This document shows positions 2,788 to 22,404 of a stretch of 23,226 bases of DNA, piece after piece. Source of the DNA: a virus; the IMG/VR virus record IMGVR_UViG_3300025483_000079, positions 1 through 23,226 of that record. The stretch is one strand, 5' to 3'. Numbering within the stretch: the first letter of the stretch is position 1; each line of letters begins with the position of its first letter. The notes beneath the pieces are model-generated. The model had not been told where the DNA came from. It saw only the letters and a list, made by a program, of their open reading frames with translations, and did no database searches. Position numbers and translations under genes: made by a program.

Positions 2788-2816
2788 TTGACAGGGCACC
2801 TCGCGCCTGCTATACT
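2788..2816 (+). promoter_or_regulatory. Consensus sigma70-type promoter inside a short CCC/GGG hairpin
   Basis: TTGACA (2788-2793) and TATACT (2811-2816) are separated by exactly 17 bases. The -35 box is flanked by CCC and GGG, so it can be the loop of a small stem. The element begins right at the hub gene stop codon (TGA, 2782-2784). It should start a transcript near 2823, just before the small gene at 2839. It lacks the T-run seen in related elements, so termination here is doubtful. Confidence 0.8.
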
Positions 2817-2838: not shown

Positions 2839-3033
2839 ATGAGCACCCATCTCGCACATGTCTTTGTCAATTTTTCAAAACGGTCAATTAATATCGTAGA
2901 CGATGAAGGATACGATAAAACTGTAAACTGGAAATGGGACGAAGAAGGTTCTGAAGGTTTCTCTGAAACTGTCAGTGAGATTGAAAACATTCTCGATCCT
3001 GATATGATTACTTATTGTTTTGCTGTAAAATGA
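2839..3033 (+). CDS. Small acidic protein of unknown function
   Basis: The 64-residue product starts at an ATG with a good ribosome binding site (CAGGAG, five bases upstream), directly downstream of the consensus promoter. It is acidic and contains a VNWKWDEEGSEGF stretch that loosely recalls the WDEND motif of two other small proteins here (6698 and 18277). I do not recognise a family with known function. Its stop overlaps the next start (ATGA), so the two are probably co-translated. Confidence 0.75.
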   Translation: MSTHLAHVFVNFSKRSINIVDDEGYDKTVNWKWDEEGSEGFSETVSEIENILDPDMITYCFAVK

Positions 3034-3248
3034 TTGGACCTATTGGAGTTACACTACAACAAGCAGAAGATAATCTTGAGTTTCTTTTAGATCTCACAGA
3101 TACTCAACATGTTTGTTGGAAAATTACTCGTCCTGATGGTAAGTCTGTCATGATGGTTCCCGTCAATGAAATCTCTCCTATTCCTGATGAGATTCAAAAT
3201 CAAGTAGAAGAATTTCAGAAACAATTCATGGAGGAAAATGCGTCCTGA
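3030..3248 (+). CDS. Small protein of unknown function, 72 residues
   Basis: I chose the ATG at 3030 because it overlaps the upstream stop as ATGA, a usual arrangement for translational coupling; an in-frame TTG at 3015 would add only five residues. The product starts MIGPIGVTLQQAEDN, has a beta-rich middle (WKITRPDGKSVMMVPVNEI) and a helical Glu/Gln-rich tail. No motif identifies a function. It overlaps the next gene by 11 bases, making a three-gene early cluster under the 2788 promoter. Confidence 0.7.
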   Translation: MIGPIGVTLQQAEDNLEFLLDLTDTQHVCWKITRPDGKSVMMVPVNEISPIPDEIQNQVEEFQKQFMEENAS

Positions 3249-3477
3249 AACTCGTGAATCAATGGAAAATCTTTGGTCCGCAAAATGGAACTTGCCAAAG
3301 GCAGCAAGAAACTGTAATTTAACAGACAAGGAGATGAAAATCACCTTCAACGAGTATTGTGCTTTTCATCCTCCTACCTGGGAAATTGGTAACACAAAAC
3401 AGATTAGTATCCTTTATGTTGACGCGAGTATGGCGGAATCGGTAGACGCACCAGACTTAAAATCTGTTGAGAATTAA
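3238..3477 (+). CDS. Small helix-rich protein whose frame runs into the tRNA-Leu gene
   Basis: The first about 50 residues look like a genuine compact helical protein (MENLWSAKWNLPKAARN, then LTDKEMKITFNEYC), perhaps helix-turn-helix-like. The last 17 or so residues (SMAESVDAPDLKSVEN) are simply the tRNA-Leu gene read as protein, and the stop at 3475 lies inside the tRNA. Either the original stop was lost when the tRNA gene was joined to this end, or the overlap is tolerated. The start overlaps the preceding gene. Function is unknown. Confidence 0.55.
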   Translation: MRPETRESMENLWSAKWNLPKAARNCNLTDKEMKITFNEYCAFHPPTWEIGNTKQISILYVDASMAESVDAPDLKSVEN

Positions 3478-3508
3478 TCTCGTGGGAGTTCAAGTCTCCC
3501 TACTCGCA
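3424..3508 (+). tRNA. tRNA-Leu (anticodon UAA)
   Basis: The 85-base sequence folds as a class II tRNA. The acceptor stem is GCGAGTA/TACTCGC with discriminator A at 3508. The anticodon loop is CTTAAAA (anticodon TAA), the variable arm has a GAGA/TCTC stem, and the T arm is GGGAG-TTCAAGT-CTCCC. CCA is not encoded. There is no intron, although many cyanobacterial tRNA-Leu(UAA) genes carry a group I intron. It reads UUA, a codon that AT-rich phage genes should use often. The top pair of the anticodon stem is a C-T mismatch. Confidence 0.93.
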
Positions 3509-3519
3509 TATCTTTTACT

Positions 3520-4071
3520 ATGTTTTATCCTACCTTTCTATCTTCATTTTATTGGTCTTTCCAAGTAAATAATTTAGAGCAAATAAAAAAATACGTAGAC
3601 TCTCAAACTGATATCGATAATTCATCATTTAACTGGGGTGATGAATGTTTGATTGATAGAATTGAATTGGATAATGAGGAAATTCTTGATTTAATTCAAC
3701 CATCTATAGAAAAATTTGCAGAAGATTGGAATAGACAACCAGAGATAAAAATTTATAAACCATGGATAAATCTTTACAAGAGAGGATATTATCAAGAAGT
3801 TCATGACCATAGAACTGATTTTGGTGCTACAATAGTATTAAATGATGATGTGAATTTTTCTAAGTTTTATTTTTTTAATAGATATAGTAATTTTGCAAGT
3901 AATAAAGTATTACATTTGTTTAAAAATCTTTCTACACATGATCTATATTATCCTAATGTAAAAGCAGGTACAATAATATTTTTTCCTGGAACAGCACTTC
4001 ATGGAGTTACTGTTCACAAAAGTGATGTAGTACGAAAAACATTGTCATTTAATATAGACATTGTATCATGA
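3520..4071 (+). CDS. 2OG-Fe(II) oxygenase-like protein, first of six (H-x-H type)
   Basis: The 183-residue product resembles the small phage-rich 2OG-FeII_Oxy_5-like group. NLYKRGYYQEVHDH gives candidate iron ligands His95 and His97 in place of the usual HxD, with Asp100 nearby. The distal motif FFPGTALHGV supplies His161, and Arg172 before TLSFNI is placed to bind 2-oxoglutarate. Enzymes of this fold couple 2-oxoglutarate decarboxylation to hydroxylation or demethylation of a substrate; none is evident here. It starts 11 bases after the tRNA-Leu gene and overlaps the next gene by 4 bases (ATGA). The block is visibly more AT-rich than the virion genes. Confidence 0.7.
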   Translation: MFYPTFLSSFYWSFQVNNLEQIKKYVDSQTDIDNSSFNWGDECLIDRIELDNEEILDLIQPSIEKFAEDWNRQPEIKIYKPWINLYKRGYYQEVHDHRTDFGATIVLNDDVNFSKFYFFNRYSNFASNKVLHLFKNLSTHDLYYPNVKAGTIIFFPGTALHGVTVHKSDVVRKTLSFNIDIVS

Positions 4072-4706
4072 AAGTTACTAACTCAAATGATCTAGATAAG
4101 TTTCCATATATTCTTGTGGATAATTTTTATAATCAACAAGAATTAAATGAAATATGGGAAGAATTGGATTATATGTGTAGTCCTAAAAGAATGAATCGAT
4201 CTTCCATTGAAAATGGTGGAGCATGGGATAAAGATGAATATGGCAATAAACAATTATTGAAACATAATTGGACCATGTGGTTAGATCCTTTCTTTGTACA
4301 AAATAGGCAGCATTCAAATATTTTAGGTGTAAACCGAAAGTTATTTCATAATATGCATCTGTTTACCGATCATCCTCATTGGTTAATTAACGATGTTGAT
4401 GCTCTCCAAAAAGACTTCAGTCAAATTGCATACTATGAAGACAGTGATGTTTATAAAGTTCATAGAGATTATTCCAGATTAACATGTCTCACTTGGTTTT
4501 TTCGAGAACCAAAAAAATTTACTGGAGGTAACTTACAATTTCCTTTGTTTGATATTGAGATTGAATGTAAAAACAATAGAATGATTATTTTTCCTGGAGC
4601 AGTTCCCCATGCAGCAACTAAAGTTTGTATGGAAGAAGAACATAGAGGAAAAAAACTTGGAAGGTTTGTAATGGTGCAGTTGCTAAAACTTGACGGAGGT
4701 ATGTAA
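4068..4706 (+). CDS. 2OG-Fe(II) oxygenase-like protein, second of six
   Basis: The 212-residue product has the complete motif set of the superfamily. VHRDYS supplies His132 and Asp134 (HxD), followed by FTGGNLQFP. IIFPGAVPHAAT supplies His181, and GRFVMVQ supplies Arg199 for the 2-oxoglutarate carboxylate. The N-terminus (DKFPYILVDNFYNQQEL) is the typical leader helix region of prolyl-4-hydroxylase-like proteins. It overlaps the previous gene (ATGA) and shares one base with the next, so it belongs to a tightly coupled operon. Substrate unknown. Confidence 0.8.
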   Translation: MKVTNSNDLDKFPYILVDNFYNQQELNEIWEELDYMCSPKRMNRSSIENGGAWDKDEYGNKQLLKHNWTMWLDPFFVQNRQHSNILGVNRKLFHNMHLFTDHPHWLINDVDALQKDFSQIAYYEDSDVYKVHRDYSRLTCLTWFFREPKKFTGGNLQFPLFDIEIECKNNRMIIFPGAVPHAATKVCMEEEHRGKKLGRFVMVQLLKLDGGM

Positions 4707-5281
4707 TGAATTGGAAATCTCTATCTAACTGTAATGAAGTTTTTCAAATATCAAATATTTTTCCTTGGTCATATTACAATACTTTAATTGATGAATTTGA
4801 TTTCAAAAATAATACTATTGTTTGGGATAAAAGAGAACTTAGTGAGCAACCTTTATTTGGTCAACATGAAGATACTAAGTGGAATAATAATGAGTTGGGA
4901 TGGAATTATAAATTCATACACTCCTCTCGTTATGCTGAATATGCACTTAAAAAAATTATAAAAAAGAATGTAAAATTAATTAGAATCAATACCAACTTTC
5001 AATTCTATGGTATGGAATCTGGTTGGCATAATGATTATAATATTCCAGATGAGAATGCCTGGTCACTTGTTACCTATATCAATTCCAAATGGGACTATAC
5101 TTGGGATGGTCAATTTGTTATTCGTACAAAAAATAGAGATTATATTAATGTCAATCCAACTCCAAATGAAGGAGTTTTATTTAATGCCAGTCTAGAACAT
5201 AGAGGTGGCGCTCCTAATAGATATTGTACTGAATGTAGAATGTCACTTGCATTTTTATTCAAAGAGGTGTATAATGATTGA
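4706..5281 (+). CDS. 2OG-Fe(II) oxygenase-like protein, third of six
   Basis: The 191-residue product carries GWHNDYN (His108, Asp110 as HxD), then SLVTYINSKWDYTWDGQF, which matches the double-stranded beta-helix strands after HxD. NASLEHRGGAP supplies His165 and CRMSLAF supplies Arg178. That is the full Fe(II)/2OG ligand set. Its sequence differs clearly from its neighbours, so it is not a recent duplicate. It overlaps the preceding gene by one base and the following one by eight. The coding sequence is especially rich in A. Confidence 0.78.
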   Translation: MNWKSLSNCNEVFQISNIFPWSYYNTLIDEFDFKNNTIVWDKRELSEQPLFGQHEDTKWNNNELGWNYKFIHSSRYAEYALKKIIKKNVKLIRINTNFQFYGMESGWHNDYNIPDENAWSLVTYINSKWDYTWDGQFVIRTKNRDYINVNPTPNEGVLFNASLEHRGGAPNRYCTECRMSLAFLFKEVYND

Positions 5282-5834
5282 TGTTGAGGTTATTGATAAT
5301 TTTTTAGATGCATCTTACATAGATTTCATTGAACAATGGTCTATTGTTGGTTGTAAATGGCAATATAGACCAAATATATCTTCTTACCATATAATGGATA
5401 CTCCAGAGTCTCCTTGGCGTCACGGACTTGCTTTTACTACTCATGATCCAAAAAGAAACTTAGATTTTCAAAATACAAATTCAAGTTTCATGATTCCATT
5501 TATCTTAAAAGTTGAACAAACTTTTGGATTTCAGCAAAATAGTTGTTATCGCAGTAGATTTGATATGACTCTTATATCACCAGAAAATTCAATGCATGAT
5601 GCTCATCAAGATTTTACTTATCCGCACTATGCATCTATTCTCTATATAAATGATAGTGATGGAGATACTGTTATTTACAATGAAACAAAGTTTTGTGAAC
5701 AATTTACAGAAAAACAACGCATATCACCAAAGAAAAATAGACTAGTGGTATTCAATGGGTTATATTTTCACACAGGACATTCTCCAAATAAACACCAAAA
5801 CAGAATTCTTGTAAATAGTAATTATAGCGTATAA
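5274..5834 (+). CDS. 2OG-Fe(II) oxygenase-like protein, fourth of six
   Basis: I start the gene at ATG 5274 (MIDVEVIDNFLD), seven bases after AGAGG and overlapping the previous stop. The longer open frame from 5205 merely overlaps gene three. The 186-residue product has HQDF (His111, Asp113), the strand motif YINDSDGDTVIY, a distal His at 166 or 169 (YFHTGHSP) and Arg177 (NRILVN). The DSDGDTVIY motif is shared with the fifth oxygenase, suggesting these two are closer paralogues. It ends 57 bases before tRNA-Asn. Confidence 0.78.
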   Translation: MIDVEVIDNFLDASYIDFIEQWSIVGCKWQYRPNISSYHIMDTPESPWRHGLAFTTHDPKRNLDFQNTNSSFMIPFILKVEQTFGFQQNSCYRSRFDMTLISPENSMHDAHQDFTYPHYASILYINDSDGDTVIYNETKFCEQFTEKQRISPKKNRLVVFNGLYFHTGHSPNKHQNRILVNSNYSV

Positions 5835-5839
5835 TTTAC

Positions 5840-5880
5840 GGGGGAGTACAAAAGATCTGCATTATAGAAGCAGCGCCCCC
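5840..5880 (+). other. Structured intergenic element before tRNA-Asn
   Basis: GGGGG (5840-5844) can pair with CCCCC (5876-5880), and inside it CTGC (5857-5860) pairs with GCAG (5870-5873). This could be a weak terminator (no T-run follows), a tRNA-processing structure, or a decayed tRNA reduced to an acceptor-like stem and one arm. I cannot tell which. Confidence 0.35.
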
Positions 5881-5891
5881 TAGAATTTTAA

Positions 5892-5964
5892 TCCTCTATA
5901 GCTCAGTTGGTAGAGCAGGTGACTGTTAATCACCCTGTCCCTGGTTCGAGTCCAGGTGGAGGAG
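5892..5964 (+). tRNA. tRNA-Asn (anticodon GUU)
   Basis: The 73-base cloverleaf has acceptor TCCTCTA/TGGAGGA with one T-G wobble and discriminator G at 5964. The D arm is GCTC...GAGC, the anticodon arm is GGTGA-CTGTTAA-TCACC (anticodon GTT), and the T arm is CCTGG-TTCGAGT-CCAGG. CCA is not encoded. It sits between two related oxygenase genes. Confidence 0.95.
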
Positions 5965-5987
5965 TTGTCCATTTTATCATTATTAAT

Positions 5988-6611
5988 ATGACTATTGGTC
6001 TTACAAAACTAAATCATCCCACATTAGGTGAGGTCCTATTTCATAGATGTATGGGTCAGGTTAGCAAAGATAATCAAGATATTATTGAACACCATTTATC
6101 TAAACCAGAATTTAACTGGCAATTTACAAAATCTACTATAGTTGAAGGAACTAATCCTGATGAATTTTCTAAATTTGATGATGTGTCAATTCTTGCACAT
6201 CAATTAGTAATAGATAATCGTTCTTGCTCTGATTATACTAGTCCATTAATTGATCATACTGAAATTAAAGATTTAATCAATAGACATCATTTGTCTGGAG
6301 AAATTTTACGTGCTCAGGTTAATTTATTTGTAAAACGTGATAAAGTTATAAATCCATGTCCTCACATTGATATCCGTTCTGTACCTCACATCGGCATTTT
6401 ATATTATGTGAATGATGCTGATGGTGATACAGTTTTTTATGATCGTTCTGAATATGATTCAAATGAAGAACTTGGTCTTATGAAAGAATGGAGGAGAGAA
6501 TCTCCAAAGAGGGGTGATATTTTAATTTTTGATGGTAGAATATATCATAGTCCATCTTGTCCAGTTGAAGCAACTCATAGGATTAGTGTTAACTTTGATA
6601 TGTTAAAATGA
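5988..6611 (+). CDS. 2OG-Fe(II) oxygenase-like protein, fifth of six
   Basis: The ATG at 5988 is the first start outside the tRNA; the open frame upstream only reads through the tRNA gene. The 207-residue product has PHIDIR (His126, Asp128), then YYVNDADGDTVFY, which nearly repeats the equivalent strand of gene four. GRIYHSPSCP supplies His187 and HRISVNF supplies Arg198. No clear ribosome binding site is visible. It overlaps by four bases (ATGA) a longer open frame that continues into the next small gene. Confidence 0.78.
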   Translation: MTIGLTKLNHPTLGEVLFHRCMGQVSKDNQDIIEHHLSKPEFNWQFTKSTIVEGTNPDEFSKFDDVSILAHQLVIDNRSCSDYTSPLIDHTEIKDLINRHHLSGEILRAQVNLFVKRDKVINPCPHIDIRSVPHIGILYYVNDADGDTVFYDRSEYDSNEELGLMKEWRRESPKRGDILIFDGRIYHSPSCPVEATHRISVNFDMLK

Positions 6612-6647
6612 ATTATCAATATCCTCTTTATGCACCATATTGGAAGG

Positions 6648-6676
6648 TTGACGCTTTCAAAAAATCATGGTACAAT
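6648..6676 (+). promoter_or_regulatory. Sigma70-type promoter before the 6698 gene
   Basis: TTGACG (6648-6653) and TACAAT (6671-6676) are separated by exactly 17 bases. Transcription would start near 6683, about 15 bases before the ATG at 6698. This supports 6698 rather than 6608 as the start of the downstream gene. Unlike other promoters here, its -35 box is not in a hairpin loop. Confidence 0.65.
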
Positions 6677-6697
6677 ACACTCAGTTCCCTGTTTAAG

Positions 6698-6985
6698 ATG
6701 ATTAATGTCAAAGACAACGAAGATGGTTCCTTCGAAATCCAGTGGGATGAAAACGATCCAGAAGAAAGTATCCTCAACGACTGGACAAAAGAAGACTTCA
6801 CAAACTTCTTGCGTTACTGTGCTCAACGTGAAAACTCAGAAGAATTTGGAGAAGAATCTAAAGAAACTTACTACAACTCAGAAAGCGAAGGTAAAGAAAA
6901 CTACTACACAAACCAAGACCCGTACACCCAAGCGATCAACAAAGAAACCTTTAGAATTGAAGGTGATGAACTCTCGGAAGATTGA
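6698..6985 (+). CDS. Small acidic protein with WDEND motif
   Basis: The 95-residue product starts MINVKDNEDGSFEIQWDEND, continues EESILNDWTKEDFTNFL and ends in an acidic, Asn/Tyr-rich tail. I chose ATG 6698 because a good promoter lies just upstream. A start at 6608 would add 30 residues, would overlap the oxygenase stop as ATGA and cannot be excluded. The gene uses more C-ending codons than the AT-rich oxygenases beside it, as if of different origin. Function unknown; the WDEND motif recurs in the 18277 gene. Confidence 0.7.
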   Translation: MINVKDNEDGSFEIQWDENDPEESILNDWTKEDFTNFLRYCAQRENSEEFGEESKETYYNSESEGKENYYTNQDPYTQAINKETFRIEGDELSED

Positions 6986-7133
6986 ATTCTTTCCTTGGGT
7001 TGAAACATTTCCTATCTTTTTTATGGATGAGGCAGAGAACAAAAAATGTTGGTTCACATGCATTGAACATGCACAAAAATATTTGAATAGGCATCAACCT
7101 AAGTATAAATGTTATCAATATACAGGAAATTAA
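6966..7133 (+). CDS. Small protein of unknown function, 55 residues
   Basis: ATG 6966 overlaps the end of the previous gene by 20 bases and has AAGG close upstream. The product (MNSRKIEFFPWVETFPIFFM, then ENKKCWFTCIEHAQKYLNRH) is Cys/Trp/Phe-rich and has a protein-like composition, unlike the Lys/Thr-rich stretch that the same frame gives upstream, which I reject. No function can be assigned. Confidence 0.55.
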   Translation: MNSRKIEFFPWVETFPIFFMDEAENKKCWFTCIEHAQKYLNRHQPKYKCYQYTGN

Positions 7134-7139
7134 ATTATT

Positions 7140-7730
7140 ATGGGTGAAGGATTCCCTAACAAAGGAGTTTATTATGTTCCATCAAAATTACCAAAATATC
7201 TTATAGAACTGATGAAGGGTTATTGTGATAATCTGAATTATTCTTACGGTGAAGTTTATGCTGAAGATAAAGATAATTCAATTATACGCGATAGTGTTAG
7301 AAAATCTAAAGTTGCATGGATTAATTTTGACGAATGGATTCCTGGTATTTTGCATAATATGATGATTTCAGCAAATCAAATGCATTTTAAATATGATCTC
7401 AGACATTTCAATGGTCAAATACAATCTACTGTTTACGAGGGAGGTGAAAAATCTTTCTATAGTTGGCATGTTGATGGTGGAAGAACTGGGGTATTTGATG
7501 GAGTGGAAATAGAGAGGAAACTATCAATATCATTAATTCTTAGTGAACCTGATGAATATGAGGGTGGTGAATTGCAATTTAGTTACTATAGCAAACATCA
7601 CTCTACTGGCAAACCACCTGCTGGCACAGCAGTTATTTTTCCTTCCTGGTTACCTCATAGAGTTAGACCAGTTAAGTCTGGTATAAGACATTCTTTAGTT
7701 GCTTGGATGGATGGACCTCTCTTTAAATAA
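7140..7730 (+). CDS. PKHD / prolyl-4-hydroxylase-like 2OG-Fe(II) oxygenase, sixth of six
   Basis: The 196-residue product is the most canonical oxygenase here. SFYSWHVDGG supplies His110 and Asp112. RKLSISLILSEPDEYEGGEL is the hallmark strand block of PKHD-type hydroxylases. VIFPSWLPHRVRPVKSGIRHSLVAWMDGP supplies His173 and Arg183. This family hydroxylates protein side chains, often proline, or small molecules; the target here is unknown. It is separated from the first five by two small genes and has its own ATG six bases after the preceding stop. Its last 20 bases overlap the next gene. Confidence 0.87.
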   Translation: MGEGFPNKGVYYVPSKLPKYLIELMKGYCDNLNYSYGEVYAEDKDNSIIRDSVRKSKVAWINFDEWIPGILHNMMISANQMHFKYDLRHFNGQIQSTVYEGGEKSFYSWHVDGGRTGVFDGVEIERKLSISLILSEPDEYEGGELQFSYYSKHHSTGKPPAGTAVIFPSWLPHRVRPVKSGIRHSLVAWMDGPLFK

Positions 7731-7908
7731 ATATCAACCTGGTGGATTAGAAAGACATCCCGCTAATATATTAAGATTACTCTCTGAACTTGAGGGGTCA
7801 TATCAATTATTAAAATACATGGGATTTGAAGAAGATAGTAATACTATCAAAAAAATCAAGACTACATATTATAAGTTATACTTTAAAACGAAGAAAGATT
7901 ATGAGTGA
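7711..7908 (+). CDS. Small helical protein of unknown function
   Basis: The ATG at 7711 lies inside the end of the oxygenase gene in another frame; a TTG at 7699 would add four residues. The 65-residue product (MDLSLNKYQPGGLERHPANI...) is helical, with LRLLSELEGSYQLLKYMGF and a Lys/Tyr-rich tail. Its stop overlaps the next gene's start region by eight bases. The reading frame and helical pattern look real, but no family is recognised. Confidence 0.6.
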   Translation: MDLSLNKYQPGGLERHPANILRLLSELEGSYQLLKYMGFEEDSNTIKKIKTTYYKLYFKTKKDYE

Positions 7909-8260: not shown

Positions 8261-8354
8261 ATGGGAATCATACCTTGCTGTGTGTGAATCTTTCGGCATA
8301 GAACCTTCAGCGCGGAGGTTCCTAAGATACAACGAATTGTTCCCGTATAAATAA
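8253..8354 (+). CDS. Very small protein, 33 residues
   Basis: ATG 8253 overlaps the end of the previous gene. The product MSEWESYLAVCESFGIEPSA continues RRFLRYNELFPYK. It has a sensible amphipathic helical composition and fills an otherwise empty gap. Its stop overlaps a perfect late promoter motif. It is supported only by position and composition. Confidence 0.5.
   Translation: MSEWESYLAVCESFGIEPSARRFLRYNELFPYK
8346..8353 (+). promoter_or_regulatory. T4-type late promoter motif TATAAATA
   Basis: This is a perfect match to the T4 late promoter core, 27 bases before the GTG start of the first fibre-like virion gene. It is the clearest candidate for the promoter of the late virion block. Confidence 0.75.
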
Positions 8355-11166: not shown

Positions 11167-11174
11167 AATAAATA
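11167..11174 (+). promoter_or_regulatory. T4-type late promoter motif AATAAATA
   Basis: This NATAAATA match lies in the 33-base gap between two virion genes, 20 bases before the start of the 1323-residue protein. Its presence in a real gap makes it more credible than matches inside genes. Confidence 0.6.
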
Positions 11175-15965: not shown

Positions 15966-15973
15966 TATAAATA
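15966..15973 (+). promoter_or_regulatory. T4-type late promoter motif TATAAATA
   Basis: A perfect TATAAATA in the 37-base gap before the glycine-rich adhesin gene, 25 bases before its ATG. It would give the adhesin its own late transcript. Confidence 0.7.
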
Positions 15974-15998: not shown

Positions 15999-17183
15999 AT
16001 GTCATCTATTACAGTAGGAACTCTTACTTCAACGACTGTAAATGTGAGTGGAAACATCACCATGACCAATGGTATGGTGTTACCTTCATTTACTACAGCA
16101 GGTAGACCATCAAGTCCTAGTGCAGGTCAGATGATCTTTAACACAACTACCGTTGATGTTGAGGTTTGGACAGGATCTGCTTGGGCACCTTTCTTAGGTC
16201 AAGGTTTAAGAAATTGGACTACAGCAGGTAGACCTGCATCACCTGTTGCAGGTGACGTTGGATGGAATACTGAAGATGAGATTGCAGAAATTTATAATGG
16301 AACTGAGTGGGTTCCATTAGGTCAAGGTGGTGGTGCTGATCCTGGTGAGGTTCTGTTTGTTAGCACTGGGCAGAGAAGTTGGGTTGTTCCTGATGGTGTA
16401 GAGTCTGTTTCTGTTGTTGCTATCGGTGGCGGTGGCGGTGGATCAGGCGACCATGATGGTGGTGGCGGCACTGGTGGTGGTCTTGGATGGAGAAATAACA
16501 TTTCAGTAACTCCTGGCGGAAGTGTTACAGTTGTCGTTGGTTCTGGTGGCAGTGGCGGTCCAGGTGATAGTCAAAACGGGCAGGATGGTGGCGATTCCTG
16601 GTTCCAGTCTACTAGTCAAGTTCGTGGTGGCGGTGGAACAGGTGGTCGTGGTAACTATTCTAATGAGAGTCTTCCTGGTGGTAGTTTTACTGGCGATGGT
16701 GGCGGAAGAGGTGGAGAAAATAACTACGGTCCTACTTGGAGAAATGGTGGTACTGGTGCTGGCGGTTACACTGGCAGAGGTGGAGAGGCGGCAATTCCTT
16801 ACAACAACCCTGGTATAGCAGGTACTGGCGGCGGCGGCGGGTCAGGTTCTGGCGGCAATAACTATTATATGGGCGGCGGTGGAGGCACTGGCGTCTATGG
16901 TGAAGGATCAAATGGTAATGGTGGCACTTTCACTGGTAACGGAAGAGAGGGACAACCTGGACAGGGTGGATCTGGAGGGCAACCTGGCGGACCTCCTAGG
17001 AGTGCTGGTCATCACGGTGGTATCTATGGCGGTGCAGGTGGTGGAACCTTTGCTGGTAACAACCAAGGTGGATTGGGTGCTAATGGTGCTGTTAGAATTA
17101 TATGGGGTAGTAATGATGTTCCAAGATCGTTCCCTAGCACAAATACTGACATAGGATCCTCAGTCACGAATCAGCAAGTGTAA
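15999..17183 (+). CDS. Glycine-rich, gp38-like tail fibre tip adhesin
   Basis: The 394-residue product has two tandem copies of a module (TTAGRPSSPSAGQMIFNT...WTGSAW at 32-63; TTAGRPASPVAGDVGWNT...YNGTEW at 73-105). A strand block follows (RSWVVPDGVESVSVVAIG), then about 230 residues of polyglycine-rich sequence, and a closing GANGAVRIIWG with a short tail. T-even gp38-type adhesins form a polyglycine sandwich with variable loops that bind the host receptor, and I infer the same job here. The Gly tract uses GGT and GGC codons and forms a local GC-rich island in AT-rich DNA. It is followed by a strong terminator. Confidence 0.72.
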   Translation: MSSITVGTLTSTTVNVSGNITMTNGMVLPSFTTAGRPSSPSAGQMIFNTTTVDVEVWTGSAWAPFLGQGLRNWTTAGRPASPVAGDVGWNTEDEIAEIYNGTEWVPLGQGGGADPGEVLFVSTGQRSWVVPDGVESVSVVAIGGGGGGSGDHDGGGGTGGGLGWRNNISVTPGGSVTVVVGSGGSGGPGDSQNGQDGGDSWFQSTSQVRGGGGTGGRGNYSNESLPGGSFTGDGGGRGGENNYGPTWRNGGTGAGGYTGRGGEAAIPYNNPGIAGTGGGGGSGSGGNNYYMGGGGGTGVYGEGSNGNGGTFTGNGREGQPGQGGSGGQPGGPPRSAGHHGGIYGGAGGGTFAGNNQGGLGANGAVRIIWGSNDVPRSFPSTNTDIGSSVTNQQV

Positions 17184-18581: not shown

Positions 18582-18643
18582 CAGTCACCGAACTGGAGCA
18601 GCACCCTTGACGGGGTGCTTTTTTTATGCCATACTGTATACAG
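18579..18643 (+). promoter_or_regulatory. Combined terminator-promoter module before the first R-M unit
   Basis: It starts at the stop codon with GTGACAGTCACCGAACTG, a partial inverted repeat. TTGACG (18607-18612) forms the loop of the hairpin GCACCC/GGGTGC. The spacer holds the hairpin arm and seven T, and CATACT (18630-18635) lies exactly 17 bases after the -35 box. CTGTATACAG (18634-18643), a perfect 10-base palindrome, overlaps the -10 box and likely start point and could be an operator. It drives the gene at 18657. Confidence 0.8.
18601..18625 (+). terminator. Hairpin terminator with -35 box as loop
   Basis: Stem GCACCC (18601-18606) and GGGTGC (18613-18618), loop TTGACG, followed by seven T (18619-18625). 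A classical rho-independent shape. Confidence 0.85.
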
Positions 18644-18656
18644 GTTAAACAAAGCA

Positions 18657-19283
18657 ATGCCACTCACCGCTGAACAAGGTTACAAGATCAGAGAAGAGTA
18701 TTCTGACATCAAAGAAAAGGCAGTTTGTGATGCACATGGTCTGACACAAGTTGGAGGTTCACGCACTAAAATTGATGGTACTGATGGCGTTAAGAATAAG
18801 AGCATCAAGAATATGTCAGGATCTTCTACACAGGTTCATCTCACAACACAGAAACATTTCATCGAGATGTTAAACATCAGTGGTGATGCTGCTGAGTTCA
18901 TTGCACATTTCTGTGGCAGTGTAGGTTATAACTACAATGGCAAAGATCGCCGTACTATCAAACAGATTGATACGGTGCAGGTTGATGCTTTCAAAGAGTT
19001 CCTTAATACAAACAAGGCAAAAGTTGTCGATCTTATTATTCGCAATGGATTCGACATCACGTCAGTTGTAATTAAGAATACAAAGACAGATGAAGAGTTG
19101 GAGTTGACCTATCAACAGATTTGTGATAAGATTAAGGATGCACAATGGGTCTTCCTCAGTGGTGGTATTCACTTGAAAAATGCTGAAGGTAAGAGTTACT
19201 TTCACTTTCAGCGTGAGGGTAAAAAGAAACTGAGCAATCGTCACAATGTCTTGTGGCATATTCACCGTAACTTGTTCGTATGA
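18657..19283 (+). CDS. Putative restriction endonuclease paired with TSPPY methyltransferase
   Basis: I start at ATG 18657; the frame open from 18615 runs through the promoter. The 208-residue product has a mixed region KIDGTDGVKNKSIKN (residues 38-52) that could hold a D...xK-type metal site, followed by MSGSSTQVHLTTQKHFIEML. Its C-terminal GIHLKNAEGKSYFHFQREGK and NRHNVLWHIHRN recall the closing strands of some type II restriction enzymes. The gene overlaps a DNA methyltransferase by four bases, the usual restriction-modification arrangement. The nuclease call rests mostly on this context and weak motifs. Alternatives are a methyltransferase accessory or an unrelated DNA-binding protein. 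Confidence 0.5.
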   Translation: MPLTAEQGYKIREEYSDIKEKAVCDAHGLTQVGGSRTKIDGTDGVKNKSIKNMSGSSTQVHLTTQKHFIEMLNISGDAAEFIAHFCGSVGYNYNGKDRRTIKQIDTVQVDAFKEFLNTNKAKVVDLIIRNGFDITSVVIKNTKTDEELELTYQQICDKIKDAQWVFLSGGIHLKNAEGKSYFHFQREGKKKLSNRHNVLWHIHRNLFV

Positions 19284-20008
19284 TTATCAATAAAGATTGC
19301 ATCGAAGGTATGAAAGAGATGGAAGATAATTCCATCAATACTATTGTCACATCCCCTCCATATAATAAGAAGGGATTACTTGGTAAGGTGAAGCAAGGTA
19401 ATCAGATCTGGGGTAAGTTTCAGATTGATTACAACACTTATGGTGACGATATGCCTGAAGATCAGTATCAGGCATGGATGGTAGAGTTTCTCAATCAGTG
19501 TCATCGTATTATTAAACCTGATGGTTCTATCTTCTTCAATCACAAACCAAGACGATATAAGAATAGATGTTATCTTCCCACAGACTTCATCAGTCAGAGT
19601 GATGCTCAACTCTATCAACTGATCATCTGGGATAGACGCAACTCACCAAATATCAGGAATGATGTACTTGTGCCATGCACAGAGCATATCTATTGGTTCT
19701 GTAAAAAGAAACCGAAAGTATTTCGTGATGCCATAGATCCTGCATACAAAGGTGAAGTATGGGTGATCAATCCTGAACGACAGAAACAACATCCAGCACC
19801 ATTTCCACCGCAATTAGTAAAGAACTGCATCCAACTCACTACTGAGAAGGGTGACGTTGTTTTGGATCCTTTCATGGGATCAGGCACAACTGCCCTAATT
19901 GCGACAGAATGTAACAGAAGTTGGATTGGGTTTGACATTGACGAAAAGTATGCTAATCTAACTAAAGAAAGAACCAATCAAACTAATCTGAATCACATTC
20001 TTAAATGA
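19280..20008 (+). CDS. DNA methyltransferase, beta-class, TSPPY type (probably N4-cytosine)
   Basis: The 242-residue product transfers a methyl group from S-adenosylmethionine to an exocyclic base amine. Motif IV TSPPYN is at 24-29, and motif I DPFMGSGTT at 196-204, followed by GFDIDEKY. The order IV-before-I is the beta arrangement. An S rather than D before PPY favours N4-cytosine over N6-adenine, though this is not decisive. HPAPFPPQLVKNC (171-183) fits motif X. It overlaps the putative nuclease upstream and the ParB-like gene downstream, each as ATGA, so the three are one translation unit. Confidence 0.9.
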   Translation: MIINKDCIEGMKEMEDNSINTIVTSPPYNKKGLLGKVKQGNQIWGKFQIDYNTYGDDMPEDQYQAWMVEFLNQCHRIIKPDGSIFFNHKPRRYKNRCYLPTDFISQSDAQLYQLIIWDRRNSPNIRNDVLVPCTEHIYWFCKKKPKVFRDAIDPAYKGEVWVINPERQKQHPAPFPPQLVKNCIQLTTEKGDVVLDPFMGSGTTALIATECNRSWIGFDIDEKYANLTKERTNQTNLNHILK

Positions 20009-21054: not shown

Positions 21055-21111
21055 CAGTCGCTGAACTGGTCCAGACCCCTTGACAGGGGCGCTTTTTTCA
21101 TGTATTATAAT
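21052..21111 (+). promoter_or_regulatory. Combined terminator-promoter module before the second R-M unit
   Basis: It starts at the stop codon with GTGACAGTCGCTGAACTGG, very close to the 18579 copy. TTGACA (21080-21085) is the loop of CCCC/GGGG. TATTAT (21103-21108) is exactly 17 bases away, and an overlapping perfect TATAAT (21106-21111) is 20 bases away. The consensus -35 box suggests strong early expression. Confidence 0.82.
21076..21098 (+). terminator. Hairpin terminator with -35 box as loop
   Basis: Stem CCCC (21076-21079)/GGGG (21086-21089), loop TTGACA, then CGC and six T (21093-21098). The stem is shorter than in the 17208 and 18601 copies, so termination may be partial. Confidence 0.65.
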
Positions 21112-21136
21112 AGTATCAAAGGAACCCACCCCACCT

Positions 21137-21673
21137 ATGTTTGACTCTATCTTTGCAGATGGTTCTCTTCGTGATTACATTGATAGCAACCTCCAAGATC
21201 CTTGGAAGGGCACAAACTTTGAGGGTTATGTATTCCTTTCACCTAAGCAAAAGGGTGAGTTGGGTGAAAGATTCGTGTCTAACTTGATGAATAATCTTGG
21301 ACACAAAGTTGAACGTGCAGCAACATCTACCGCAGGACATGATCGCGTTATTAGTAAAATACTGACAGAGATTAAGTTTGCTCTTGCTACTCGTAACAAG
21401 AAAGGTGGCGTGACTGTTGATAAGTTCATCATCAATCATGTCTCTGTAGGTAAAGATTGGGAGCGTCTTATCTTCTGTGGTATCAACCCTGATGAGAAAG
21501 ATGCTCGCATTGTGTTCATCACCAAAGCAGACTTTGAAGCACACTTGAAGAGTGATAAGTGCTATTTCAATGTGCAGCAAGGTGGTAAGAAAGTTGGCAA
21601 CGATGACTACATTTGCACAAATGTTGCTGCTCTGCTAGAATGTGACTTCGTGAAGAATATTGCTGAATGGTGA
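21137..21673 (+). CDS. PD-(D/E)xK-like nuclease, putative restriction enzyme
   Basis: ATG 21137 follows AAAGGA; the frame open to 21080 lies in the promoter. The 178-residue product has SPKQKGELGERFVSNLM (Glu in the first helix), then AGHDRVISKILTEIKFALA, in which Asp69 and Glu78-Ile-Lys80 fit the D...ExK active site of PD-(D/E)xK nucleases. The rest is mixed alpha/beta with a conserved-looking DWERLIFCGINPDEKD strand region. It overlaps a DNA methyltransferase by seven bases, so the pair looks like a compact type II restriction-modification system. Degradation of host or competitor DNA is the inferred role. Confidence 0.7.
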   Translation: MFDSIFADGSLRDYIDSNLQDPWKGTNFEGYVFLSPKQKGELGERFVSNLMNNLGHKVERAATSTAGHDRVISKILTEIKFALATRNKKGGVTVDKFIINHVSVGKDWERLIFCGINPDEKDARIVFITKADFEAHLKSDKCYFNVQQGGKKVGNDDYICTNVAALLECDFVKNIAEW

Positions 21674-22404
21674 ATTTACTACTGGGTGATTGTTTAGATC
21701 TTCTGCCTACGATTGCAGATGATAGCATCGACATGCTGCTGGTAGATTTGCCCTACGGTACAACTGCCTGCAAGTGGGATAGTATTATCCCTCTAGACAA
21801 GTTGTGGGAGCAATACAACAGAATCTGTAAAGAAAATGCGGCAATGGTATTCACTGCTGCACAACCTTTCACTACAATTCTTGCTGCTTCAAATATCAAG
21901 AACCTAAAGTATGAATGGATATGGGAGAAACCGCAGGGAACTAACCCCATGAATGCCAAAGTTATGCCTCTTAAGAGTCATGAAAACATCCTGGTATTTT
22001 ATAGAAAGAAACCAACATATAACCCTCAAATGTGGTATTCAACTCCGTACAGTGGGTTTAAGTCTGACACTGCAAAGATTGGCGAAGTTTATGGAGAAGC
22101 AAAATCTAAGCATCGGGACAACCCTGAGGGGTCTCGCTACCCTAAGACCGTCTTAAAATACAAGCAAGAGAAGGGTTTACATCCAACACAGAAACCTGTG
22201 CCACTAATGGAGTATTTGATCAAAACATATACTCATAAAGGTGACACAGTGCTGGATAATACCATGGGTAGTGGTACAACAGGCGTTGCATGTGTCAATA
22301 CAGATAGAAACTTCGTTGGAATCGAGATGGATGAGAAATATTTTAATGAAGCACAAACCCGTATCGGATCGCTAAAAAATCCTCTCACTGACCTGTTCAT
22401 GTGA
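21667..22404 (+). CDS. DNA methyltransferase, beta-class, DLPY type (probably N6-adenine)
   Basis: The 245-residue product opens with MVNLLLGDCLDLLPTIADDS and motif IV DLPYGTT (27-33), typical of N6-adenine or related methyltransferases. HPTQKPVPLMEYLI (172-185) is motif X, and DNTMGSGTTGVAC (197-209) is motif I followed by GIEMDEKYF. The IV-X-I order is the beta arrangement. No target recognition domain can be identified. It is translationally coupled to the PD-(D/E)xK protein and would protect phage DNA from it. As an orphan it could instead serve regulation or evasion of host enzymes. Confidence 0.9.
   Translation: MVNLLLGDCLDLLPTIADDSIDMLLVDLPYGTTACKWDSIIPLDKLWEQYNRICKENAAMVFTAAQPFTTILAASNIKNLKYEWIWEKPQGTNPMNAKVMPLKSHENILVFYRKKPTYNPQMWYSTPYSGFKSDTAKIGEVYGEAKSKHRDNPEGSRYPKTVLKYKQEKGLHPTQKPVPLMEYLIKTYTHKGDTVLDNTMGSGTTGVACVNTDRNFVGIEMDEKYFNEAQTRIGSLKNPLTDLFM

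Follow-up and report, generated by a model that had tools for sequence, protein, structure and literature searches.

We inspected the viral contig IMGVR_UViG_3300025483_000079 (the full IMGVR record, 23,226 bases, hereafter the window, to which our oxygenase counts for this DNA refer) and confirmed six complete genes for 2-oxoglutarate (2OG)-Fe(II) oxygenases on the plus strand at positions 3520–7730. In marine T4-like cyanophages few kinds of accessory gene are as numerous as these oxygenases. The six genes, termed here ox1 to ox6, had been proposed as a tandem cluster in a sequence-only reading of the window, and the assignment is borne out by Pfam, PHROG and iterated profile searches. That reading made no mention of the two tRNA genes of the locus. 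The block is interrupted by a tRNA-Asn gene between ox4 and ox5 and by two small genes between ox5 and ox6. The locus contains the following features.

2788–2816, plus strand: predicted sigma-70-type promoter, TTGACA-N17-TATACT, with TGC ahead of the -10 element
3424–3508, plus strand: tRNA-Leu (taa), a hot-spot marker, ahead of ox1
3520–4071, plus strand: ox1, 183 amino acids, PF13759 / phrog_81
4068–4706, plus strand: ox2, 212 amino acids, PF13640 / phrog_61
4706–5281, plus strand: ox3, 191 amino acids, PF13640 / divergent phrog_274
5274–5834, plus strand: ox4, 186 amino acids, PF13640 / phrog_274, a family mislabelled "DNA endonuclease V"
5892–5964, plus strand: tRNA-Asn (gtt), between ox4 and ox5
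5988–6611, plus strand: ox5, 207 amino acids, phrog_274 family
6608–6985, plus strand: small acidic conserved protein of unassigned function, phrog_1364; its start overlaps the ox5 stop
about 6966–7133, plus strand: small protein of unassigned function, phrog_1609
7140–7730, plus strand: ox6, 196 amino acids, PF13640 / phrog_61

The phrog_1609 match covers residues 88–142 of an open reading frame (ORF) at 6705–7133, and the start at 6966 was read from the sequence. At the start of the island, positions 3015–3248 encode a protein of a Phd-like antitoxin family (phrog_375) with no obvious toxin partner.

Pfam places ox1 in PF13759 (E 1.5e-8, 35.4 bits against a cut-off of 27) and ox2, ox3, ox4 and ox6 in PF13640 (E 5e-6 to 6e-14, above the gathering score), while the match of ox5 lies below the gathering score (E 0.003–0.009). 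The PHROG matches are phrog_81 for ox1 (1.7e-32), phrog_61 for ox2 (3e-22) and ox6 (3e-41), and phrog_274 for ox3 (5e-19), ox4 (1e-35) and ox5 (1.6e-29). Iterated profiles seeded by each of the genes converge on 271–314 of 318 proteins, a single superfamily that includes ox5. No domain fusion hinting at a substrate was found, as family members in the loci reach at most 241 amino acids; the phrog_61 profile has a length of 689.

Family alignments bear out the iron-ligand styles that had been read from the window, namely HxH in ox1 and HxD in ox2–ox6. The relevant residues are H95-x-H97...H161 with R172 in ox1, H132-x-D134...H181 with R199 in ox2, H111-x-D113...H166 with R177 in ox4, and H110-x-D112...H173 with R183 in ox6; ox3 and ox5 also carry HxD...H. 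The H-D-H ligands are present in 145 of 148 relatives of ox2–ox6. The ox1 family has H-H-H in all 50 members, that is, the carboxylate is absent there, and HxH also occurs in the bacterial PF13759 structures 3bvc and 2rg4, which rules out decay or oddity as the explanation of HxH in ox1. The arginine for the 2OG carboxylate, which follows the last histidine, is invariant in the family alignments of ox1 (R172), ox6 (R183) and ox2 (R199) and at least 90% conserved in that of ox4 (R177).

AlphaFold2 models, which cover ox1 and ox4, show a double-stranded beta-helix with a prolyl-hydroxylase-like fold in both (ox1, predicted local distance difference test 88 and Z about 16; ox4, 91 and Z 16). SnoN, HygX and ALKBH3 lie near PHD2 in fold score, the metabolite enzymes within 1–2 Z for both models and ALKBH3 (Z 15.1 to the ox4 model) within about 1 Z. 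The ox6 profile matches PKHD hydroxylases (3dkq, 6.8e-19; PiuC) as well as prolyl 4-hydroxylases, and the ox2 profile matches the prolyl 4-hydroxylase 6t8m (E 4.5e-8); the ox4 family found no match among PDB sequences. PKHD-type enzymes (PiuC, Sbal_3634) and prolyl 4-hydroxylases thus resemble ox6 and ox2 in profile and ox1 and ox4 in fold, but identity in the structural alignments is about 8–18%, from which a substrate is not inferable. All the above indicate that the six genes encode separate intact 2OG-Fe(II) oxygenases, predicted to fall into the prolyl-hydroxylase-like branch of that superfamily. Protein hydroxylation is our best guess for their activity, judging from profiles and models.

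All six genes are under purifying selection and are not decayed. Ratios of nonsynonymous to synonymous substitution rates (dN/dS) against orthologues are 0.07–0.40 (ox1 0.17–0.23, ox2 0.11–0.26, ox3 about 0.25, ox4 0.07–0.34, ox5 0.13–0.28, ox6 0.20–0.40), comparable to those of gp5 (0.15–0.20). The sequence-only reading had held that motif residues unconserved in homologues would mark the genes as decayed or not oxygenases; since the iron ligands and the arginine are conserved in each family and dN/dS is like that of gp5, this objection does not apply. Their variable presence might suggest genes in decay or passengers that evolve neutrally, but the same ratios and the intact iron ligands already contradict this, and we give the idea practically no credence.

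The profile matches also bear on an existing annotation. Genes ox3–ox5 (4706–6611 in the window) belong to PHROG 274, which carries the label "DNA endonuclease V" or denV but is by its motifs and profile matches a predicted 2OG-Fe(II) oxygenase family. The "denV" genes of P-SSM7 (PSSM7_034, PSSM7_188, T4-GC 100) and of Syn19 belong to it (GenBank GU071103, 22719–23297 and 151842–152324; GU071106, 21674–22171 and 22628–23173), and the label has spread over many cyanophage records and into PHROG 274. PSSM7_034 and Syn19_032 match PF13640 above the cut-off; Syn19_026 alone gives no Pfam match, but it can be aligned with the family and retains HxD...H. Among the proteins of the ox3/ox4/ox5 family alignment and the labelled denV proteins scanned, none matches PF03013 (Pyr_excise) and many match PF13640, while the same scan detects a genuine PF03013 protein, S-CREM1 ORF91. 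These matches set the phrog_274 family apart from T4 DenV. The PF03013 gene of P-SSM7 is PSSM7_154 (130731–131240), annotated as "hypothetical protein". That a true DenV-type gene was overlooked is partly known, since the S-CREM1 authors noted overlooked pyrimidine-dimer glycosylases (PMC9964418) and a 2010 review stated that the cyanophages known at that time lack denV (PMC2984593). In the literature searched we found no description of the mislabelling of the oxygenase family, which bears on claims about UV repair in cyanophages.

The six genes appear to have been gathered from a gene pool common to cyanophages and not by local duplication. In a maximum-likelihood tree of 140 representatives, the nearest relatives of each of the six are genes of other phages, which rules out local tandem duplication and upholds the view that they are not recent duplicates. 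The proteins are very divergent and the aligned core behind the tree has 162 columns, so its deep branches are untrustworthy. Even the closest pair, ox4 and ox5, shares 33% identity over 72 residues, and 7–10 foreign sequences are closer. The block had been described as AT-rich and hence possibly acquired. Its overall GC content is indeed lower (27–34%, versus 38% in the window). At third codon positions, however, GC is 0.14–0.23 in the six, like that of gp5 and the tail genes (0.14–0.21). Related loci, some of them overlapping, contain 503 oxygenase genes, and 89% of these have a GC content below that of their own locus. As low GC is general for these genes and the third positions resemble the neighbours, composition gives no support for recent acquisition and is ruled out as a sign of it. 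What speaks for gain and loss is that relatives carry a mosaic of different genes in the island.

The window has a hot spot of the T4-like cyanophage (Kyanoviridae) type between gp5 and the tail-fibre genes, marked by tRNA genes, and the block forms its variable part, in which genes accrete. The gp5/tRNA site has been described before as a hot spot of these phages (PMC3037559). Among 39 distinct closed loci, from which duplicates were removed by hand, five have no oxygenase, four have one, nine have two, eight have three, nine have four, three have five and one has six. That single six-oxygenase locus is the window together with its near-identical contig (IMGVR 3300003580_000031, L006). On the latter contig a seventh 2OG oxygenase gene stands ahead of gp5 at 5576–6139, outside the window. 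Genes ox1–ox6 are also found, in the same order and at 66–88% identity, in the divergent contig IMGVR 3300030085_003543 (L013/L099/L107), and five of the six occur in L007 and L008 up to the contig end. Relatives have an ox2–ox5–ox6 backbone in common, and in them ox1, ox3 and ox4 are swapped for other oxygenases, being gained and lost independently of the backbone genes. Complete relatives have about 7–13 oxygenases per genome.

Clusters of this type are already known in the phage family, and the six-gene locus joins them. S-CREM1 has a similar run of consecutive small divergent 2OG oxygenases on one strand with overlapping ends (PMC9964418), but its run comprises nine genes (SCREM1_72 to _80) in 5.5 kb, one of them JmjC, and is placed after the tail-fibre gene, whereas that of the window lies between gp5 and the fibres. 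By profile search, Syn9 has about six oxygenases in 4.1 kb (about 38.5–42.6 kb, the gp48–gp53 region); here too the block follows the fibre gene, and most of its genes are annotated by number only. S-CAM22, S-MbCM100, P-SSM7, Syn19 and Syn30 share with the window the gp5–tRNA site, the flanks and orthologues of ox2, ox4 and ox6, several also the same tRNA-Leu and tRNA-Asn, but have two to five oxygenases in other combinations. Many divergent members of the same subfamilies are found in the single cyanophage S-SCSM1, where the 24 2OG-Fe(II) oxygenase genes are a genome-wide total (PMC9602691). The cluster had been called striking. The six genes are real, but that word has to be tempered because equal or larger clusters exist in known phages; the HxH motif is likewise the rule of its family. 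The unusual look of the cluster is thus mostly accounted for by the known biology of the phage family, and we consider the promoter and the misannotation to matter more than the cluster itself.

The sigma-70-type promoter at 2788–2816 scores 11 of 12 and starts 3 nucleotides past the gp5 stop codon. A promoter scoring 11–12 of 12 follows gp5 in 46 of 52 non-redundant gp5 loci, while among 1040 random windows drawn from these loci 12 reach 11 and none reaches 12; in P-SSM7 (L021) it is absent at exactly that place. Late-promoter cores (ATAAATA) stand about 25–34 nucleotides ahead of gp5 in 75 of 94 loci, of yadA in 50 of 50 and of the large fibre gene (fib3) in 42 of 46, but ahead of only 9 of 491 oxygenase ORFs, as counted over partly overlapping loci with mechanically set ORF starts. 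The window holds five ATAAATA sites, all on the plus strand (199–205, 7727–7733, 8347–8353, 11168–11174 and 15967–15973), and four of them lie about 25–34 nucleotides ahead of a structural gene. Their total is not above chance; the signal is in position and conservation. These matches suggest that the oxygenase island is an early-type unit within the late module, with a conserved host-type promoter separating it from the late tail genes. The locus offers six conserved genes in compact form, together with a promoter that can be tested.

We propose that the locus is an exchangeable oxygenase island with its own promoter that serves host-directed hydroxylation, a reading to which we assign a probability of roughly one in two. 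The tRNA and oxygenase genes would be read from the host-type (sigma-70) promoter just past gp5 through tightly coupled start and stop codons, while the T4 late promoters would serve the flanking structural genes. Each enzyme would bind Fe(II) through two histidines and an aspartate (in ox1 a third histidine) and 2OG through the conserved arginine, and would couple 2OG decarboxylation to the hydroxylation of a separate target. Acting early in infection, the enzymes would most likely modify side chains of host proteins. Gene number might vary because each enzyme helps the phage on some hosts and can be spared on others. A bolder version, which we put forward as speculation and hold to be doubtful, is that cyanophages maintain at this site an exchangeable set of protein hydroxylases that is expressed early and alters several host proteins, be they of translation, photosynthesis or defence, in a way that depends on the host; if so, combinatorial hydroxylation would be a tool of host range or counter-defence.

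Several points weigh against host-directed hydroxylation. The literature searched demonstrates no substrate or function for these phage enzymes, and the protein-hydroxylase fold is common to enzymes of small molecules and nucleic acids such as SnoN, HygX and ALKBH3. Read-through from the late promoter ahead of gp5 is possible, and the inference on expression consists of consensus matches only. Moreover, oxygenases concentrate around the large fibre gene: in eight genomes, which are not independent, 43 of the 74 members of the superfamily are found at most 20 kb from it, where about 17 are expected (hits were combined manually, and profile matches that overlap count as one). This clustering also fits a target in the virion, although the region near the tail-fibre gene collects other added genes too. 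The oxygenases might then hydroxylate baseplate and tail-fibre proteins of the phage and alter adsorption, as is proposed for viral prolyl and lysyl hydroxylases and collagen-like virion proteins; they flank tail-fibre genes, and their fold is near those of the PBCV-1 and mimivirus hydroxylases (5c5t, 6ax7). However, late promoters are rare ahead of the oxygenases and regular ahead of yadA and fib3, the sigma-70-type promoter is conserved, and the island varies in content next to a large fibre protein that is 80–85% identical in most genomes. Because the island has its own predicted sigma-70-type promoter and late promoters almost never precede the oxygenase genes, host-directed action is favoured over fibre maturation, which we see as possible but on balance unlikely. 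Rather unlikely, too, is that the enzymes act on small molecules or drain 2OG and thereby shift host nitrogen signalling (NtcA), an idea proposed for cyanophages in 2010 (PMC3037559). The fold, shared with amino-acid and metabolite hydroxylases, would allow it. Yet mere 2OG consumption would not call for six divergent enzymes that each conserve residues of their own, and uncoupled 2OG turnover is usually slow.

An action on nucleic acids, as AlkB-like repair or demethylation, has been proposed for two Syn9 homologues adjoining uvsX/uvsY (PMC2984593), and both the ALKBH3 fold match and two DNA methyltransferase genes downstream in the window are consistent with it. The AlkB family is, however, absent among the sequence matches (Pfam and the ox6 and ox2 profile searches), and we see this reading as improbable, though the fold scores prefer prolyl hydroxylases by a small margin only. 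More improbable still is that the six act in succession on one target or pathway, as the sequence-only reading had suggested. Adjacent overlapping frames and the six-gene order kept in a second contig would agree with it, but nothing links the substrates of the six, and the independent gain and loss of ox1, ox3 and ox4 relative to ox2, ox5 and ox6 makes an obligatory pathway look unlikely.

The two DNA methyltransferase-like genes lie at 18615–20008 and 21080–22404, and each overlaps an upstream gene of unassigned function, with which it could form a restriction-modification-like pair. In the gene at 21080–21673 a possible nuclease-like D...E-x-K pattern was seen by eye. Positions 15999–17183 encode a glycine-rich (GGxGG) protein; GC there is about 50%, far higher than the window mean of 38%.

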